Shown here: positions 678-21,779 of the stretch, piece by piece
Position numbering within the stretch: position 1 is the first letter of the stretch
Layout of the letters: each line of letters starts with the position of its first letter
NCBI GenBank assembly: GCA_031265105.1
Contig: JAISDC010000238.1
Location: 1-35,748 of the forward strand
Source: Verrucomicrobiales bacterium
GTDB lineage: Bacteria > Verrucomicrobiota > Verrucomicrobiia > Methylacidiphilales > JAAUTS01
Direction of reading: 5' to 3'
DNA: 35,748 nt
The notes under the pieces: generated by a model
Seen by the model: only the letters and a program-made list of their open reading frames with translations
Told to the model about the DNA's origin: nothing
Database searches by the model: none
Translations under genes and position numbers: made by a program

Positions 678-3600
678 TCAAGGGGAAAACTGCCGGTTTT
701 CAACGATGCGCCAGCGGTAGAAGGTATCCAGCGCGGGCATCGCCAACGGGTCTGCCGCGTAATCGGGAATGGCGGTGGCGTTCGGGTCGATGAAGCGTTC
801 GATGGTGGTGGAACCCCGATATTCAGCGGTAATCGTGGCGCGGTTCTCATCCCACTGGCCGGCCGGCGCCGGTGCCGCCTTCAACCGCTGGACGCGAAAA
901 TGCACCGTGTAGGTGTTGGATTTGGTTGTCAGGCGCGGAATCATCGTGGTATAGGGGCGCTCCCGCATGTTATCACCGGTCAGACGATGGTTCGCCCAGA
1001 AGGCCGGCATCGTGTCAACGGATTGGCCCTGCGGCACCAGCCATAGGTCGCATAACTCGGTGGGTGACAGGAACAGGCGGCCGGTGTTCTCAGCGGCCGC
1101 GAAGCGGGTGTCAAATTGCGTCAGGGTTTCCTCCGCGTCAATCGCCAGCCGGTAGGAGGCGCTGACGGTGGTCTGGCATTTGTAGATGCTGCCCGCGTTG
1201 GTTGGCACGGCCGCGATTTTTTCGGTGTTCAGCAGCGCCAGCAAGCCGGTTTTGCGCGTGAGGTACGCAAACGGCTCGATGGCGTAGTTCATGTTGATTT
1301 TGCCCGCGGTGGCGAAGGGCTCGCTGATGGCGTAGGGTTGCACGGTCGGCATCCAGAACAAGTCCATGAGCAAATGATCCGGCGCCAGGGCGCTGTTCGT
1401 GTCGGGATGATCGGGTTGTTTGCGGAAGAGCAGCGTGCGCCAGGCATGGTCAGCGGGATTGGCAATGCCGGACTGGTATCTTTGCACGTGCGTCGGCAGG
1501 GAACCGAACATGCCCGGCCCGGCGATGATGCGGTTGGGGCTGAAGAAGCTTTCGGAATTAACCTCATTCTTGCGGTCCACGCTGTAATAGGGAATGTCCG
1601 CACTGTCAGCGCCCGACCAGACGTGGATGTCGCCCTCGTCCGGTTTGTTGATAAAGGGGCCGTCCGGCAGATCGCTCATGGGGTTGTCGAAGTCGCCGTT
1701 TTGCGTGACAGTCGCCACGATGGCGGCATTGTCATTGCGAAAATCCGGCCGGAAGCGGTCAATGCCGCCATAGACATAACCAATCGCGCCGGTGGTCACG
1801 AAATGCCGCCGCCATTTCCCGCCGCCCGCCACATGGTCAGCGGCTTGCGCGCCCGAACTCAACGTGTGCATCAGCGCGTTGGCCGCGCCGCCGGCGTTCC
1901 AGTCGCCCAGCGGGGTGAAGACTTGCGCGGGCACTTCCTTCAGGGCGGCAACCAGGCGATAATCGCCGTGCGACGGCACCATCGAGCGGACCACATCCGT
2001 GTAATCCGGGTTGTTGCCACCCCCGCCCCGGATTAATGAGCCGGACAAAACGTCCTCGTTTTTTACTAAAGCGACCAGCCCCGCAGGCGAAATCCCCCAG
2101 CTATTCGGGGACGTGGTGACGCCGTATAACCGGCCGCCGGAGGCATCCCCCGGCATGGGTGACCGCTGGCTGAATGCCCACCAATGCGAGGCTTTATTGG
2201 CCCCGGCCCCGCTGTCGTCGGTGACCACGAGGTTGGGAATGGGCAGGGCGCTGGCGGCGGGCGGCGTGATATGAATCGTCTGCAATGTTTGCCACGCCGA
2301 GCCATCGGCCGAGCTTTCAAAGGTCACCGTCAACGGGCCGGCCCCAAAGGCCATGGTGGCGGCGGTCGTGGCGCTGACGGTCACCGGCAGGCTGATGAAC
2401 GGATAGACGCTGGTGGGGCGTCTGTTGTCATCTCCGTCCCAGGCCAGCGGCGAGCGGCGCGGGTAATATTCCTGGCCCATAAAAGCCCGATAGTCAAACG
2501 GCCCGCCGTTGGACCGAAAATGAATCCCGCCGCGATTGAAGCCGGTATTATCCAGCGCCGTCAGGGAAGCGAGGTCCTGGGCAAACAGGGGCTGACCGTC
2601 AAGGGTCAGGCTCGCCAGTCCACTGATGTTGACGCGAAAATTTTTGGGTTGGATGGGGACATACCCCACTGAGGGTGAAAACATTTCGAAATGAATCGCC
2701 ATTTGCACCCGCCGTTCCATTCGAGCGGGATCCAGTTTTTGCTCCAGGGTCCGGTTGCCCGCGGTTGGCGCGGCCGGGTCGAATTTGTTGCTGCCCTTCA
2801 GACCGTCAGCGTTCGGCACCTCCGCCGGGTCAACCGAATCGGCCGTGCAAATAAAGTGGAAGGCCAGCTCGGACAGCGTCACGGCGCGCCCGAAGCCGCG
2901 CCGCCCGGATATTTCCAAAGGCACCACGTAGCCGTAACCGGCAATGTCAAAATTGTCAGTGGTGAAGGAATGGCCCGGCGCCAATCGGGAGTCATACAGG
3001 TTGGTGGAGCGAATGTAATCCCAAATCTCCAGCAGAATCTGCTCGGTGTCGTCTTGAAATTTCGCGCTAAGGCTGACGCCAAAACCGGGAATATCGCGCG
3101 CCGCCAAATCCCGGAGATAGGAGTATATTTCCATGTTACGCTCAATCGTCGCGTCCTCCGTCGGACTGAGGTTGTTCTGGCGCTGAAAGTAGTACGGTCG
3201 CGCGGAAACCGTGGAGCAGAAGGCAATGGTCTGGTCGAAAGGAGTGCGGCCGGCAGGATTGACGGCAAGCGGCCAACAGGCGATCCGGGGCAGATTGAAT
3301 AAATTCAACTCAGGGGCGCGGCTGGTCGTCGTGAGAAAAAATTTGAGCTTTTGCAACCGGTCGCGATCCATGCCGCTGGCGGTCATCCGCTCCGTTTGGT
3401 CGGAAATGAACGAGCACTCGTCAATGCTGGCCAGGAGCGGCTTGTTGGCGACTTGTCCGTTCGCGAGCGCCGCCGTCATTTTGTAGGTTTCCTTGGCGCC
3501 TTGCTCGGAACCGCCCCACTGATAGCGCGGCGTAAGCTCCGCGAGGATTTGCTCATCGGTGAGATCCGGAAATACGGTTTTTAAATCCGTCATCGCGGGA

Positions 3601-4574
3601 TGCCCCGGATAGCGCTGGAATTCCCCGTTCAACGGCTGGCGCGTGGCGAAATTGCGCTCCTCCGGGGTGTCGAAATGCGGGGTGTCCCAGTAAGATCCGG
3701 CCCCGGCGGTATTGAGATTGATCTTGCAAGTGTCATCGTCAGTCCAAAACGCGATGCGCCCGATGACCGGATTGGCTTGGTTCGCCCCGCTGATGGTGAT
3801 GGTGGTTCCTGAAACAGCGGGTGCCACGATTTGTCCTCCCTGCAAAATATAGAGCCATCTCACCGGCATGGGCGCCGGCTGACTGACGGTCGCGCCCGGC
3901 GCGTCAGCAATGGCGATGCCCGCGATCCGTTTTGCGGGATTTTCATCCAGGGCCGCGGAAGGGTCGAAAATGGGAAAGGTGGTCGTGGTCGCCGCTCCTC
4001 TGACCACCGTCACCGGGGAATTCAGATCCGTCCAGACCGCGCGGGCATCCGCCCAGTCCGGCGGCGGCTCATCCTCAGCGGCGATGGCCGACGGATCCGT
4101 CACCGTCAGCGTCGCCGCGGAATAAAGTTTGTAGGCCGTATCAAACGCGCCGGAGCGGGAGTATGTGCGAATCATCCCCGGCTGCGACACCCAGGCGACT
4201 TCATTGCCCCTGGTGGTGGCGTGGTTAATCTGGGTTTCCACCAGGTTGACGGCGTTGTCCGCCAGCTGACGGGTCTCGGCATTGGCGAGAAAGATGGCTG
4301 AGGAACTCAACTCGGTCCGCACCATGCTTAGAAAGGCGACCACCAGTCCGACGATCAACACGGTAACGCACAGAACGGTGACCAACGCCACCCCGGAGCG
4401 GTTCTTAGCTTCATTAACGCAAAGGGACAAAGAATTTTTTACAAGGAGAGCATGGAGGAATTGGAGGAGGGGCTGTTGATTGAAACTAACCTTTCTCCAA
4501 TAACTCCATGCTCTCTTTGTAAAAAAACCTTCGCGCCTTGGTCCCTTTGCGCCTTGGTGTCGGTTCGTTGTCAT
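678..4574 (-). CDS. Verru_Chthon cassette protein A (large pseudopilin-like protein)
   Basis: A protein of 1298 residues with one hydrophobic segment near 62-80 (begins GVALVTVLCVTVLIVG), placed as in PilX/GspK-type minor pseudopilins, followed by a long Ser/Thr/Asn-rich exported region. Size, this segment and position as the last gene of a B-C-D-A set match the family named Verru_Chthon cassette protein A in Verrucomicrobia. Its biological role is unknown. The start at 4574 overlaps the stop of gene D by ATGA, like the other junctions of the operon. Residues ~5-55 are encoded by a dispersed nested palindrome (4408-4562), so the N-terminus appears to be a repeat insertion kept in frame ahead of the export segment. 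A downstream non-ATG start is possible. Four copies of the CGCTGACGGT 10-mer lie in this gene. Confidence 0.85.
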   Translation of the reverse strand: MTTNRHQGAKGPRREGFFTKRAWSYWRKVSFNQQPLLQFLHALLVKNSLSLCVNEAKNRSGVALVTVLCVTVLIVGLVVAFLSMVRTELSSSAIFLANAETRQLADNAVNLVETQINHATTRGNEVAWVSQPGMIRTYSRSGAFDTAYKLYSAATLTVTDPSAIAAEDEPPPDWADARAVWTDLNSPVTVVRGAATTTTFPIFDPSAALDENPAKRIAGIAIADAPGATVSQPAPMPVRWLYILQGGQIVAPAVSGTTITISGANQANPVIGRIAFWTDDDTCKINLNTAGAGSYWDTPHFDTPEERNFATRQPLNGEFQRYPGHPAMTDLKTVFPDLTDEQILAELTPRYQWGGSEQGAKETYKMTAALANGQVANKPLLASIDECSFISDQTERMTASGMDRDRLQKLKFFLTTTSRAPELNLFNLPRIACWPLAVNPAGRTPFDQTIAFCSTVSARPYYFQRQNNLSPTEDATIERNMEIYSYLRDLAARDIPGFGVSLSAKFQDDTEQILLEIWDYIRSTNLYDSRLAPGHSFTTDNFDIAGYGYVVPLEISGRRGFGRAVTLSELAFHFICTADSVDPAEVPNADGLKGSNKFDPAAPTAGNRTLEQKLDPARMERRVQMAIHFEMFSPSVGYVPIQPKNFRVNISGLASLTLDGQPLFAQDLASLTALDNTGFNRGGIHFRSNGGPFDYRAFMGQEYYPRRSPLAWDGDDNRRPTSVYPFISLPVTVSATTAATMAFGAGPLTVTFESSADGSAWQTLQTIHITPPAASALPIPNLVVTDDSGAGANKASHWWAFSQRSPMPGDASGGRLYGVTTSPNSWGISPAGLVALVKNEDVLSGSLIRGGGGNNPDYTDVVRSMVPSHGDYRLVAALKEVPAQVFTPLGDWNAGGAANALMHTLSSGAQAADHVAGGGKWRRHFVTTGAIGYVYGGIDRFRPDFRNDNAAIVATVTQNGDFDNPMSDLPDGPFINKPDEGDIHVWSGADSADIPYYSVDRKNEVNSESFFSPNRIIAGPGMFGSLPTHVQRYQSGIANPADHAWRTLLFRKQPDHPDTNSALAPDHLLMDLFWMPTVQPYAISEPFATAGKINMNYAIEPFAYLTRKTGLLALLNTEKIAAVPTNAGSIYKCQTTVSASYRLAIDAEETLTQFDTRFAAAENTGRLFLSPTELCDLWLVPQGQSVDTMPAFWANHRLTGDNMRERPYTTMIPRLTTKSNTYTVHFRVQRLKAAPAPAGQWDENRATITAEYRGSTTIERFIDPNATAIPDYAADPLAMPALDTFYRWRIVENRQFSP
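4408..4562. repeat. Nested palindromic repeat inside the Verru_Chthon A reading frame
   Basis: The outer arm begins AGCTTCATTAACGCAAAGGG near 4410, and its partner is the CCTTGGTCCCTTTGCGCC segment near 4538-4555. Inside it a second palindrome runs from GAGAGCATGGAGGAATTGGA to its approximate complement CTCCAATAACTCCATGCTCTC. The same nested arrangement occurs at 19978-20163. This copy lies within the first ~55 codons of protein A, at a length that keeps the frame open. Confidence 0.8.
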
Positions 4575-5194
4575 AGGCTGAAGATGCGAATTTCGCCGGT
4601 GGCCAGATTGACGTAAATTGACCGAAAATTACTGGGTGCTGTGGCAGCGGTGATTTTGCGGACGGGCACAATAGTGAAAAAAGCGTCCTGGGGGCTGTTC
4701 AAACCTTCCAAGGTGCCATCAGCCAGATAGGTGATGGCGATATAGGGGCAGTCCTTCCCCAGGACGGTCATGGTGCCATCTACCAGATTAGGAATATTTA
4801 ACAGGGGCGAGAGGGTGCTGGTTTCAGAGATTGCCGTGGAATCGGGCAACTGCGTTGGCCGGTTGAGCGGAATCATGGCGCCCGTGTCATCTTTGGCAAT
4901 CCACGGCTGGATAATCTGCAAAATGCGCGAGCCTTGCCGAGTGGAGGTCTTGATGAACCGAATTTCCACCCGGCGGTTTTTGGCCATGGCGTTTTCCCTG
5001 GCGAGAATCACGGCGTCGGCTACTTGCAAGCCGGCCCGTTCCATCGCCATCCGCTGCGTGCCGGAGGTAATCGCCGGCACGCCGATGGCCAGGAGGCTGA
5101 CCATGATGGCGACGACGACAATCAGCTCGACCAGCGTGAAAGCGGTGGCGCGTTGCTCGCCTGGCGGACATGAATTGCGCGGCGTGGCGGTCAT
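4571..5194 (-). CDS. Verru_Chthon cassette protein D (GspH-like pseudopilin)
   Basis: About 207 residues. A class III (prepilin-type) leader ends in AFTLVELIVVVAIMVSLLAI, with Phe+1 and Glu+5 as required by prepilin peptidase. The motif that follows (LQVADAVILARENAMAKNRRVEIRF) is typical of GspH/FimT-like minor pseudopilins and of Verru_Chthon protein D. The next upstream start, at 5206, would give four more residues. I prefer 5194 because it gives the same ATGA overlap with the preceding gene C as at the other junctions. The protein is probably assembled with its neighbours in the inner membrane by a type II secretion or type IV pilus-like machine. No such machine is encoded in this window, and no function has been shown. 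Confidence 0.85.
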   Translation of the reverse strand: MTATPRNSCPPGEQRATAFTLVELIVVVAIMVSLLAIGVPAITSGTQRMAMERAGLQVADAVILARENAMAKNRRVEIRFIKTSTRQGSRILQIIQPWIAKDDTGAMIPLNRPTQLPDSTAISETSTLSPLLNIPNLVDGTMTVLGKDCPYIAITYLADGTLEGLNSPQDAFFTIVPVRKITAATAPSNFRSIYVNLATGEIRIFSL

Positions 5195-6213
5195 TGTTTC
5201 GTCCATTTGGATTCCCGGAGCGGCACGGTGTTGGTAAATATCCGGTAGCTAATCCGCGCCGCGTTCAACCGCTCTTCCAACGTCGCGAGATCGGCGGCGT
5301 AGGCGGCAGGCTCCGCGCGTTCAAACAACTGCTTGAAGCAAGCGGTGACGATGCCGGGCGGCGCCGCGGCATCCGGCAGCCGATCCGCCGAGACTTTATC
5401 AATGGCGACCAGCGTGACCGCGACGAGCGGCGGCTGTTGATGCGCGGTAATCGGCGCCGCGGCGGAATTCGCGTCCTGGCGGGAATCGTAGGTATAGTCA
5501 TCTGTCAGACTCAGGCCGCCGGCCTCCTCCTCCATTGACAGCCGCGGCCAGAACAGCACAAAAATCACGTTCTCGGCAATCACCGTGGAATTGGCCGTCA
5601 AATCCCTTTTGAACCATTCGCTGTCGGTGGTGCCATACACCGCCAAATCTTCCGAAGGTTCCAAATACTGCATGAGTCGAAACCGGTTGCGATCCATCGC
5701 CGCCAAAAAAGGCGGCAGATTGGCATCCATGCCGTAGGTGACATAGTACCCCGTCGCGTTCAGCAAGCTGTCCATGCCCTCGTGGCCCGGCTGATTGGAT
5801 TTTCCCAGCCTGGCCTGGAAGAAGATGGCGTTGCCCTGGCCAAAATTATTATCCGGCGGCGGCTCGATCACGAAATGGAGATCGGACTTGCGAATGTAGA
5901 AAGTTGGGCTGGTCGGATTGTCATAGTCCCCATAGACATTGAGCGTGGCCTGGCTGAGGCGCCGGTTGATCAGGTCGAAAGCAAAACGCGCGGAGCGAAA
6001 GGAGTCGATTTTGTTTCTGGCATTTTGCCAAATTGAACTGGTCTGGCTGACGACCGTCAACAGCAGGGTCAACAGAATCAGGAAGACGCTCATGCTCACC
6101 AACAGTTCGATTAGCGTGAAGCCGGGGAAAACTCGTCGCACTCTCGGACCTGACCGGCCGAAAATCATGGTGGCATGAGGAAAAATGTACATTGCGGAAA
6201 TGGTTTGCGTCAC
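5191..6213 (-). CDS. Verru_Chthon cassette protein C (PilW/GspJ-like pseudopilin)
   Basis: 340 residues. The prepilin-type segment GFTLIELLVSMSVFLILLTL begins at about residue 31, then comes the conserved block TSSIWQNARNKIDSFRSARF with FDLINRRLSQATLNVYGDYD shortly after it. That AR-AFD-SQATLN signature is characteristic of Verru_Chthon protein C. The rest is a soluble domain with alternating strands. The start ATG overlaps the stop of gene B by ATGA, so translational coupling is likely. An alternative start at internal Met 8 or 16 is possible, because the leader is long for a pseudopilin. Confidence 0.85.
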   Translation of the reverse strand: MTQTISAMYIFPHATMIFGRSGPRVRRVFPGFTLIELLVSMSVFLILLTLLLTVVSQTSSIWQNARNKIDSFRSARFAFDLINRRLSQATLNVYGDYDNPTSPTFYIRKSDLHFVIEPPPDNNFGQGNAIFFQARLGKSNQPGHEGMDSLLNATGYYVTYGMDANLPPFLAAMDRNRFRLMQYLEPSEDLAVYGTTDSEWFKRDLTANSTVIAENVIFVLFWPRLSMEEEAGGLSLTDDYTYDSRQDANSAAAPITAHQQPPLVAVTLVAIDKVSADRLPDAAAPPGIVTACFKQLFERAEPAAYAADLATLEERLNAARISYRIFTNTVPLRESKWTKQ

Positions 6214-10056: not shown

Positions 10057-10245
10057 ATTTTGCTTCGGTTGGTTTGGACGCAAAAAAGGTACGCACCTTT
10101 CGGGAAAAAGTACGGATGAATCCGGGAACCCACCCCGTCTCCCCACTCCGCGCCGCTGACGCTGGCGAGTGGTATCCTACCACATGGGGAATGAAACGGG
10201 TAGATTTTGGCCGCGAAATTAGAAAATCAGGGCAAACTTCACGCC

Positions 10246-10365
10246 GTGAGCGCGTGAGCGCGTGAGCGCGTGAGCGCGTGAGCGCGTGAGCGCGTGAGCG
10301 CGTGAGCGCGTGAGCGCGGTGTACTTACGTTATGACTTATCTTGCTCATCTTCAGCGGGTTAGCG
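10246..10365. repeat. 8-bp tandem repeat (GTGAGCGC x9) with a conserved flank
   Basis: Nine exact copies of GTGAGCGC at 10246-10317, then a flank containing GTGTACTTACGTTATGACTT and GCTCATCTTCAGCGGGTTAG. The flank and a four-unit version of the tandem repeat recur in reverse orientation at 32382-32453. The unit number differs (9 against 4), as expected of a variable tandem repeat. The rest of 9937-10500 holds only repeats and no supported gene. Confidence 0.85.
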
Positions 10366-16051: not shown

Positions 16052-16849
16052 ATGGACAACCGACCCCTGGGCATCTTCGATTCCGGCATCGGCGGGCTGA
16101 CCGTCGCGCGCGCGCTGCGCGAGTTATTGCCGCGCGAACGGTTAATCTACCTCGGCGACACGGCGCGCGTGCCCTACGGCAACAAATCACCCGGCACGAT
16201 TATCCGTTACGCGCGGGAAATCGCCCGCTTTCTGCTCGCCCGGCAGGTGAAGGGCCTCATCGTCGCCTGCAACACCGCCTCGGCCTACGCGCTGCGGACA
16301 CTCCAGGCGGAACTGCCCGTCCCGGTGTTCGGCGTCATCGCGCCCGGCGTCAGCGCCGCGCTGGCGGCGACGCGCAACAACCGCATCGGCATCATCGGCA
16401 CCACCGGCACGATTAACAGCCGGGCCTACCAGCAAGCGCTGCGGGCGCGGCGGCCGGGCCTGGCGCTGACGGCGCGCGCCGCGCCGCTGCTGGTGCCGTT
16501 GATTGAGGAAGGGTGGCTGCGCCATCCCGCCACCCGCGCGGTGCTGGCGGAATACACCGGGCGCTTCCGCCAGGCGCGCGTGGACACGCTGGTGCTGGCG
16601 TGCACGCATTACCCCTTGCTGAAGGAGTTGTTAACCGAACTGTTGGGGGACGCGGTCACGCTGGTGGATTCGGCCGAAACCTGCGCCCGCCAGGTGCGCG
16701 ACGCGCTGACGCGGGCGGACCAACTCCGCGCGACCCCGCGCCGGGCGCCGCTGGAAGTGTGCCTGACCGACCAGTCCGCGCATTTCAAGGCGGTGGGGGA
16801 ACGGTTCCTGCGCGAGCAATTGCGGCAGGTAAAGGTGGTGGCATTTTAG
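16052..16849 (+). CDS. murI: Glutamate racemase
   Basis: 265 residues. The substrate-binding opening is GIFDSGIGGLTVARALRELL. The two catalytic cysteines lie in LIVACNTASAYAL and VLACTHYPLL, each with the expected neighbouring Thr, and GDTARVPYG is also typical. The enzyme makes D-glutamate for peptidoglycan. The gene is cytoplasmic and monocistronic. Its TAG stop runs directly into the end of a palindromic repeat (AGCTTCATTAACGC), suggesting the repeat inserted at the stop codon. Confidence 0.95.
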   Translation: MDNRPLGIFDSGIGGLTVARALRELLPRERLIYLGDTARVPYGNKSPGTIIRYAREIARFLLARQVKGLIVACNTASAYALRTLQAELPVPVFGVIAPGVSAALAATRNNRIGIIGTTGTINSRAYQQALRARRPGLALTARAAPLLVPLIEEGWLRHPATRAVLAEYTGRFRQARVDTLVLACTHYPLLKELLTELLGDAVTLVDSAETCARQVRDALTRADQLRATPRRAPLEVCLTDQSAHFKAVGERFLREQLRQVKVVAF

Positions 16850-16935
16850 CTTCATTAACGCAAAGGCGCGAAGGAACAAAGGCGCAAAGTTTTTTTTTAC
16901 AGGGAGAGCATGGAGAACGTGGAGGTTGTTAAAAA
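16847..16935. repeat. Half element of the AGCTTCATTAACGC family
   Basis: Begins TAGCTTCATTAACGCAAAGG at the murI stop, passes through the internal GAGAGCATGGAGAACGTGGA block and a T-rich stretch, and then stops without a matching right arm. The whole 16850-17173 gap consists of repeats. No gene is supported in it. Confidence 0.75.
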
Positions 16936-17045: not shown

Positions 17046-17163
17046 TAAAGCTACATTAACGCAAAGGAACAAAGGAACAAAGGCGCAAAGTTTCTTTTGA
17101 TTGGTTGCTAATAAACAAAAAATCCTTCGCGCCTTTGTCCCTTTGCGCCTTTGCGTTAATGAA
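17046..17163. repeat. Complete AGCTTCATTAACGC-ended palindrome
   Basis: Left end AGCTACATTAACGCAAAGG, right end CCTTTGCGTTAATGAAGCT. The arms are built of short variants of CGCAAAGG, AACAAAGG and CGCGAAGG words. It lies just past the stop of the 17174-17929 gene. Confidence 0.85.
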
Positions 17164-17173
17164 GCTGGCTGCT

Positions 17174-17932: not shown

Positions 17933-18475
17933 TTAATCCTTTCGAGTAATAGCGTAAAGGGAACTGGCCGGCGCGTCAAGTGCGCTGGCAAATAAAAGTG
18001 GTGAGTTTTCCAGGCCAAACGGCGCACGGGAAGGCAGCACCAGTGCGCGGGAGCTTGTTTTCAGTGCGCGGAATAGCGTTTTCAGTGAACTGAATGTCAT
18101 AACCAGTGAACTGAAAATCAGCACCAGTGCACTGCACGGCGTTTTCAGTGCACTGGTAAGCATAATCAGCGCACTGAAAATCATCACCAGTGCGCGGGAA
18201 ATGAATTTCAGTGCACCGGTAAGCGCCGGCAGTGCACTGGTAACGATTTTCCGTGAGCTTAAAACGCTATGCAGTGCGCTGATAATGAATTTCAGTGCAC
18301 TGAAAACGATATGCAGCGCACTGGTTATGATTTTTAGTTCACTGGTTATGATGTTCAGTTCACTGGCAGCGGTTTTCCGTGCGCCGAAAATGAGGCGCCG
18401 CGCACTGGTAACGCTGGCTAACCGGTACGCGACAGCGAGGTACTGGGAGCGCCGGCTTCCAGCCGGCTGGTTCAC
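17933..18475 (-). CDS. Doubtful heptad-repeat ORF read through the palindrome array
   Basis: The 180-codon frame runs the length of the 21-bp array and stops 3 bases before the ATG of the 251-aa protein. Its body is a seven-residue repeat of the type SALKIIT, SALHIVF, SALKFII. Because each unit is palindromic and 21 bp long, the opposite strand also gives a SAL-type heptad frame (18201-18488), so openness alone is not evidence of translation. Its first residues come from a dispersed repeat. If translated, it would be a hydrophobic leader coupled to the downstream gene. I list it because of its placement, not because I think it likely to be a protein. Confidence 0.25.
   Translation of the reverse strand: MNQPAGSRRSQYLAVAYRLASVTSARRLIFGARKTAASELNIITSELKIITSALHIVFSALKFIISALHSVLSSRKIVTSALPALTGALKFISRALVMIFSALIMLTSALKTPCSALVLIFSSLVMTFSSLKTLFRALKTSSRALVLPSRAPFGLENSPLLFASALDAPASSLYAITRKD
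17957..18428. repeat. Array of about 22 palindromic units with exact 21-bp period (core CAGTGCACTG)
   Basis: Units begin at 17957 and every 21 bases up to 18398, with no indel. Each is a 10-base palindrome (consensus CAGTGCACTG, variants CAGTGAACTG, CAGTGCGCGG, CAGCGCACTG, CAGTTCACTG) followed by an 11-base variable, mostly AT-rich spacer. The outer units are the most degenerate. The period is two turns of B-DNA, so all palindromes face the same side, and it is also a whole number of codons. The array starts 28 bases upstream of the 251-aa gene. It is too short-periodic for CRISPR. Confidence 0.9.
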
Positions 18476-19977: not shown

Positions 19978-20163
19978 TTAGCTACATTAACGCAAAGGCG
20001 CGGAGGAGCAAAGGCGCAAAGAAGTTTTTTTAACAGGGAGAACATGGAGGAATTGGAGGGGGCTGTTAATTGTAGCTAACCTTCCTCCAATAACTCCATG
20101 CTCTCTTTGTAAAAAAAATCTTCGCGTCTTTGCTCCTTTGCGCCTTTGCGTTAATGAAGCTGT
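19978..20163. repeat. Complete nested palindrome, AGCTTCATTAACGC family
   Basis: The outer ends are AGCTACATTAACGCAAAGGC and GCCTTTGCGTTAATGAAGCT. Nested inside is GGGAGAACATGGAGGAATTG with its complement-like partner CCAATAACTCCATGCTCTC. It has the same architecture as 4408-4562, with both ends intact. Confidence 0.88.
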
Positions 20164-21590: not shown

Positions 21591-21779
21591 TTAGCTACAT
21601 TAACGCAAAGGCGCTAAGGAGCAAAGGCGCAAAGGTTTTTTTTGTTTTGGTTTTAAATTAACAAAAAATTCTTCGCGCCTTTGCTCCTTAGCACCTTTGC
21701 GTTAATGAAGCTTGTAGCTAACCCAAAAAATCCTTCGCGCCTTTGCCCCTTTGCGCCTTTGCGTTAATGAAGCTCTGTA
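21591..21779. repeat. One complete and one partial AGCTTCATTAACGC-ended palindrome
   Basis: 21591-21716 has both ends (AGCTACATTAACGCAAAGGC and GCACCTTTGCGTTAATGAAGCT). 21717-21779 repeats the right half and ends TTAATGAAGCTCTGTAGCTA. The end of the partial copy supplies the last codons and stop of the glycoside-hydrolase-like gene. Confidence 0.85.

Follow-up and report, generated by a model that had tools for sequence, protein, structure and literature searches.

In-frame dispersed palindrome in the putative leader of a Verru_Chthon cassette protein A gene and other repeats in related genes

In this study, we report that a Verru_Chthon cassette protein A gene (A1) of a Verrucomicrobiales bacterium carries a dispersed palindromic repeat in frame directly behind its start, within an analysed stretch of 35,748 nucleotides (the window). 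The insert is real and is one instance of a recurrent pattern, since unrelated repeats entered the same leader in at least three other A genes, each independently. The explanation that we prefer, with a probability of roughly 0.7 judged from sequence, is that a non-coding, dispersed composite palindrome was inserted in frame after the A1 start and is tolerated in a removable leader. The palindrome would have entered behind the ATGA-coupled AUG and ahead of the class III (prepilin) signal, and would be translated as a net-positive extension of the leader peptide of about 54 residues. The leader would stay in the cytoplasm, prepilin peptidase would cut after the conserved Gly, the mature protein would be unchanged, and only the open, in-frame state of the insert would be kept by selection. 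Junk DNA is thus tolerated in the leader probably because the leader peptide is cut off and discarded; we infer both the cleavage of A and its role as the cause of tolerance.

The A1 gene encodes 1298 aa on the minus strand. Its ATG overlaps the stop codon of the D gene as ATGA, and profile searches placed Verru_Chthon B, C and D genes upstream. The match to TIGR02600 (Verru_Chthon_A) is a full-length family match (E 2.8e-273, 910 bits against a curated cut-off of 332) that joins residues 61-1298 to profile positions 1-1296. Residues 60-132 also matched the GspK profile NF037980 at E 4.9e-5, under its curated cut-off, making A1 GspK-like at its N-terminus. A search of protein A against Pfam added no information, and the Verru_Chthon cassette was not found by name in the literature searched.

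A preliminary description of the window had placed a nested palindromic repeat of about 50 codons at 4408-4562, in the start of the A gene. The repeat is present within a few bases of those positions, and its length was revised to 54 codons: the insert occupies 162 nt (4399-4560, minus strand), in frame, between the coupled start and the prepilin-type segment. As had been claimed, the A frame stays open through it, without stops from 678 to 4574. Because the TIGR02600 alignment begins at residue 61, the inserted residues, which include the repeat-coded peptides EGFFTK and VSFNQQPLLQFLHALLVK, lie outside the family; the insert is also ahead of the export segment, so processing would still be possible, as the same description had proposed. 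That segment has the features of a class III signal, RSG/VALVTVLCVTVLIVGLVVAFL with Gly at -1 and then a run of about 20 hydrophobic residues, and lacks Glu5, as in GspK. A direct repeat, GAACCG, borders the insert. Taking away one repeat unit leaves ATG ACA ACG AAC CGC TCC GGG GTG (MTTNRSGVALV), giving MTTNRSGVALVTV, the usual kind of start in the Verru_Chthon A family. Coordinates of the features are collected in Table 1.

Table 1. Features of A1, its insert and related repeat copies (window positions)
Feature	Position	Strand	Evidence
A1, Verru_Chthon cassette protein A	678..4574	-	TIGR02600, GspK NF037980
N-terminal leader, residues 1-60, about 54 from the insert	4395..4574	-	outside TIGR02600 profile
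Nested palindromic element, 156 nt (162 with one flanking direct-repeat copy)	4405..4560	-	inverted arms, fold, dispersed matches
Outer arm, complete terminus AGCTTCATTAACGC and CGCAAAGG-type octamers	4407..4432	-	terminus/octamer matches
Opposite outer arm, variant terminus ACACCAAGGCGCAAAGGGACCAAGGCGCGAAG	4529..4560	-	inverted-repeat detection
Inner core palindrome TTTTTTTACAAAGAGAGCATGGAG...CTCCATGCTCTCCTTGTAAAAAA, also alone elsewhere in genome	4433..4528	-	core-only copies
GAACCG, upstream copy, possible target-site duplication	4561..4566	-	read from sequence
GAACCG, downstream copy	4399..4404	-	read from sequence
Prepilin-type segment G/VALVTVLCVTVLIVGLVVAFL, predicted cleavage after Gly	4326..4394	-	profile; rule from PMC10191384
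Verru_Chthon cassette protein D	4571..5206	-	TIGR02596, E 2.9e-22
Full intergenic copy of the composite element	19980..20161	-	terminus and core matches
Outer-arm palindrome without inner core	17049..17166		window repeat scan
Outer-arm repeats without core, second right arm in tandem	21593..21774		window repeat scan
Half copy, one outer arm and part of core	16848..16915		terminus and core matches

The composite nested palindrome of the A1 insert was designated family I. Its inverted arms (4422-4471/4490-4539) are 50 nt long and 80% complementary, a second pair lies at 4418-4432/4537-4551, and the A-sense strand has a predicted folding energy of -77.2 kcal/mol (z -6.8 relative to shuffled sequences). 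The arms consist of CGCAAAGG-type octamers with a AGCTTCATTAACGC end, and a second palindrome, based on GAGAGCATGGAG, forms the core. Core-only and arms-only copies both occur elsewhere in the genome, and the element is therefore composite. Full copies end in the terminal inverted repeats AGCTTCATTAACGC...GCGTTAATGAAGCT, one end being variant in the A1 copy. That parts of the repeat recur elsewhere, as first proposed, was borne out in the window by 12 matches to AGCTTCATTAACGC with up to 2 mismatches (0.23 expected) and five to GAGAGCATGGAG (0.14 expected). Across the genome of the window (G000), at least 93 stretches matching the A1 element were found from the best 40 of 257 candidates, and TTAACGCAAAGRMRC had 180 sites against five for a reversed control. 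The A1 copy is the only full-size family I copy inside a gene in 264 kb. Matches to eukaryotic microRNA precursors in Rfam were dismissed, as all were below gathering scores and reflect only the long hairpin. The window also holds an array of CGTGAGCG octamers (10245-10326) and arrayed CAGTGCACTG-like units of about 21 nt that form a 178-nt inverted repeat (18017-18409).

Family I stretches were found in G002 (44), a sister species and the closest of the 40 genomes searched, and in G003 (28, spanning essentially only the inner core, 4433-4528), and were essentially absent from the others; G001, of the same genus, had none. The A1 insert itself is common to G000 and G002 at 92% identity, with 9 additional nt in G002 and the frame kept. 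The preliminary description had suggested comparing the A start with relatives free of the repeat, and these have short leaders: the A1 orthologue of G001 has a leader of 17 residues, and for 49 other A genes of the order whose leader starts with ATG the median is 16 and the maximum 39. Counted in the same way, as the distance between the motif and its nearest ATG, the A1 leader has 60 residues in G000 and 63 in G002. Conservation of the inserted residues among relatives, which would have spoken against a repeat insertion, was not seen, the residues being absent from every examined relative other than G002, where they evolve nearly freely.

Leaders made of repeat DNA, 60-159 residues long and drawn from at least three families, occur in three A paralogues of G000 and in one A gene of a third species. 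In A2 (G000:C209, G002:C56), the leader of 65 and 61 residues, respectively, is coded by an unrelated TTCCAAATTCCAA palindrome (fold z -5.4), which is itself dispersed. The A3 leader (G000:C114, 141 aa; G002:C202, 154 aa) is a TTCCAAATTCCAA palindrome with a third palindrome nested inside it. The fourth case, G003:C84, has 159 open codons, in which a full copy and a half copy of the third family lie together with other repeats, and its sister gene in G001 (C15) has a 16-aa leader and an ATGA start. In a tree of the mature proteins, each long-leader gene had a short-leader gene as its sister (leaders of 17, 13 and 16 aa), at support that was full or nearly so, the exception being the divergent A3, the placement of which was unsure; the closest repeat-free homologues have leaders of 13-17 residues. 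TIGR02532 identified 16 prepilin genes in the genome, none of them with an in-frame repeat. At one prepilin locus (L165, G000:C69, prepilin at 2347-2409), a TTCCAAATTCCAA palindrome stands immediately before the ATG, outside the reading frame.

The strongest of the rival explanations, which we nonetheless regard as unlikely, is that the repeat is a 5' untranslated insertion, with translation of A starting behind the repeat and a frame that is open by chance. Di Nocera and colleagues read many REPs at 5' ends in this way (PMC3733652). In G000 A1 an in-frame TTG lies 10 codons ahead of the motif, and a family I copy upstream of a neighbouring gene (G000:C220, L227 11245-11358) has changed by 8 nt, with ATGs directly behind it. 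In G002 A1, no in-frame ATG, GTG or TTG lies between the repeat and the motif, the only such codon being the upstream ATG, and a GTG or TTG start within the hydrophobic segment would cost the cleavage site. Moreover, the length changes between G000 and G002 in the three leaders (9, 12 and 39 nt) are all multiples of 3, as against three of 13 other orthologous copies with a modest length change (Fisher p 0.036, from three leader loci), and all three pairs are stop-free over 60-154 codons. Full-size family I copies are seldom open by chance: across 25 of them in 543 kb, 7 of 150 strand-frames were stop-free, two of the seven belonging to the A1 copy. One alignment splits the 9 nt gained in G002 A1 into +1 within an A run and +8 from an octamer, either of which alone would break the frame; an alternative alignment shows a single 9-nt gap.

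Initiation after the repeat is therefore unlikely, given the lack of an in-frame start there in G002 and the length changes in multiples of three, and evidence for a start downstream of the repeat, which the preliminary description had named as a point against itself, was not found. Translation of A1 would then begin at the upstream AUG. The genome also appears to translate such DNA, since repeats in tgt, purL and a CoA-enzyme-activase gene are beyond rescue by a downstream start. Pooled over the three leaders, pN/pS was 0.74 (44 nonsynonymous and 17 synonymous changes) against 0.14 for the mature parts (80.5 and 188.5; Fisher p 1.6e-9); the near-neutral value of the leaders taken alone would fit an untranslated stretch as well. 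Comparison of the two species thus indicates that selection guards the frame of the leader and not its peptide sequence.

The in-frame repeats in these other genes belong to families II and III. In tgt, the tRNA-guanine transglycosylase gene, a TTCCAAATTCCAA-family palindrome lies in frame mid-gene and splits the profile matches in two (L243:13886-13948, G000:C218); the stretch is of equal length in G002. In purL, the gene of phosphoribosylformylglycinamidine synthase, a TTCCAAATTCCAA-family repeat stands in frame ahead of YGKPDRI (L241:11944-12005, G000:C45). The activase gene (1528 aa; L242:10952-11092, G000:C2) holds an in-frame ACCCCGTC...CACCCCTTCACGGAAGGGG palindrome. Two repeat families also lie in an open frame before the putative lipoprotein signal of a NodT-type efflux outer-membrane protein (L244:1660-1911, G000:C271), another cleavable N-terminus, the start site of which is ambiguous. 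At L230:2720-2961 (G000:C287), in-frame repeats follow a URO-D domain as a possible C-terminal extension.

It was also considered, and judged very improbable, that the element is a regulatory hairpin, retained because it lowers or uncouples the translation of A relative to D. A strong hairpin just inside the A1 gene, as described at first, is indeed predicted, and different hairpin families occur at this position in paralogues. The suggestion that it uncouples A from D found no support: the predicted openness of the start region (-18 to +15) is nearly equal with the element (0.51), with the element removed in silico (0.60) and in G002 (0.59). The hairpin starts about 30 nt downstream of the AUG, outside the footprint of an initiating ribosome. 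The pairing of the two core arms has decayed in G002 A1, and relatives do without the element. A terminator was rejected, as a T run precedes the left arm and an A run follows the right arm, which is the wrong order, and no terminator-like site was found in the insert. Least credible of all is that the leader acquired a protein function, such as targeting or the binding of a chaperone, and was selected as a new domain. In its favour, long positive leaders recur in A genes only and are not seen among the genome's other prepilins; against it stand the unrelated peptides coded by the different repeat families and the leader pN/pS.

Toleration in a cleaved leader, the preferred reading, draws on what is known of class III leaders, which remain cytoplasmic under the positive-inside rule and are cleaved behind their last Gly (PMC10191384). 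The leaders described here are net positive (11 K+R and 2 D+E in A1), and each genome has one prepilin peptidase gene. A frame that is guarded while the sequence is free is what a cleaved leader predicts. Against this reading, the A motif lacks Glu5, and 60-159 residues far exceed the 8-18 aa reported for leaders of S. sanguinis (PMC6497953). Whether prepilin leaders are a safe harbour for selfish palindromes, in which insertions would be translated and then removed by prepilin peptidase, and on which several unrelated families would have converged, seems to us evenly balanced. If they are, a proteolytic step would neutralise intragenic repeat DNA. In-frame coding palindromes are best known in Rickettsia, where the reason for tolerance by the protein is hard to see; here tolerance would have a simple, testable cause, seen again in several genes, repeat families and species, for which the repeat-free sister genes act as controls. 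These genes also provide natural variants with which to explore the length and the arbitrariness that a prepilin leader allows, and serve as a warning for annotation, in which trimming the starts of such genes would be wrong.

Rickettsia palindromic elements (RPEs) are of about 100-150 bp, form several families and lie in frame in genes, where they are translated, N-terminal cases being reported as expressed in vivo (PMC3733652, PMC10969869). A dispersed palindrome of such a size is present here, and, with all repeat families taken together, in-frame copies are found in unrelated genes (A1-A3, the conserved enzyme genes tgt and purL, and the activase gene). Here, however, the host belongs to another bacterial phylum, the family I copies share no reading frame (7 of 150 strand-frames open), and the inserts are concentrated repeatedly in one cleavable leader. 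By analogy of features, the insert may be said to work like RPEs; it is not classed as an RPE because family I lacks the conserved coding peptide that characterises RPEs.

Like the GTAG/CGTC-tagged REPs, in which Opitutus terrae, also of the Verrucomicrobia, is rich, the repeats are dispersed palindromes, some of them in ORFs, in genomes with Y1 transposase genes; they differ in being about 90-180 nt long with full-copy ends in AGCT, in place of a GTAG/CGTC stem-loop of 20-40 bp. Size, long inverted ends, non-coding nature and a possible 6-nt target duplication (GAACCG) recall a MITE, but ends and arm lengths vary among copies, and neither a consistent target duplication nor an autonomous partner was found, Y1 transposases being the only ones examined. 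Class III signal peptides and GspK-type minor pseudopilins share with A1 the Gly-ending leader, the hydrophobic helix without Glu5 and a prepilin peptidase gene, but the repeat-DNA leaders have 60-159 residues, where the median for this family is 16.

Y1/RAYT-like transposase genes (L245-L256) are present in the repeat-bearing G000, G002 and G003, and none was found in the repeat-free G001. Mobility driven by RAYT remains a correlation, since none of the Y1 transposase genes examined has a family I-III copy beside it. At least one of the genes, in G002 (C19, L246), adjoins another, GC-rich palindrome. No empty site with a clear target duplication was found between 543 kb of G000 and 773 kb of G002. 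At several intergenic sites the sister species carry different palindrome families (among them L096:680-796 vs L082:3670-3827; L109:6689-6908 vs L085:5085-5305), which suggests replacement or turnover of palindromes at fixed spots.
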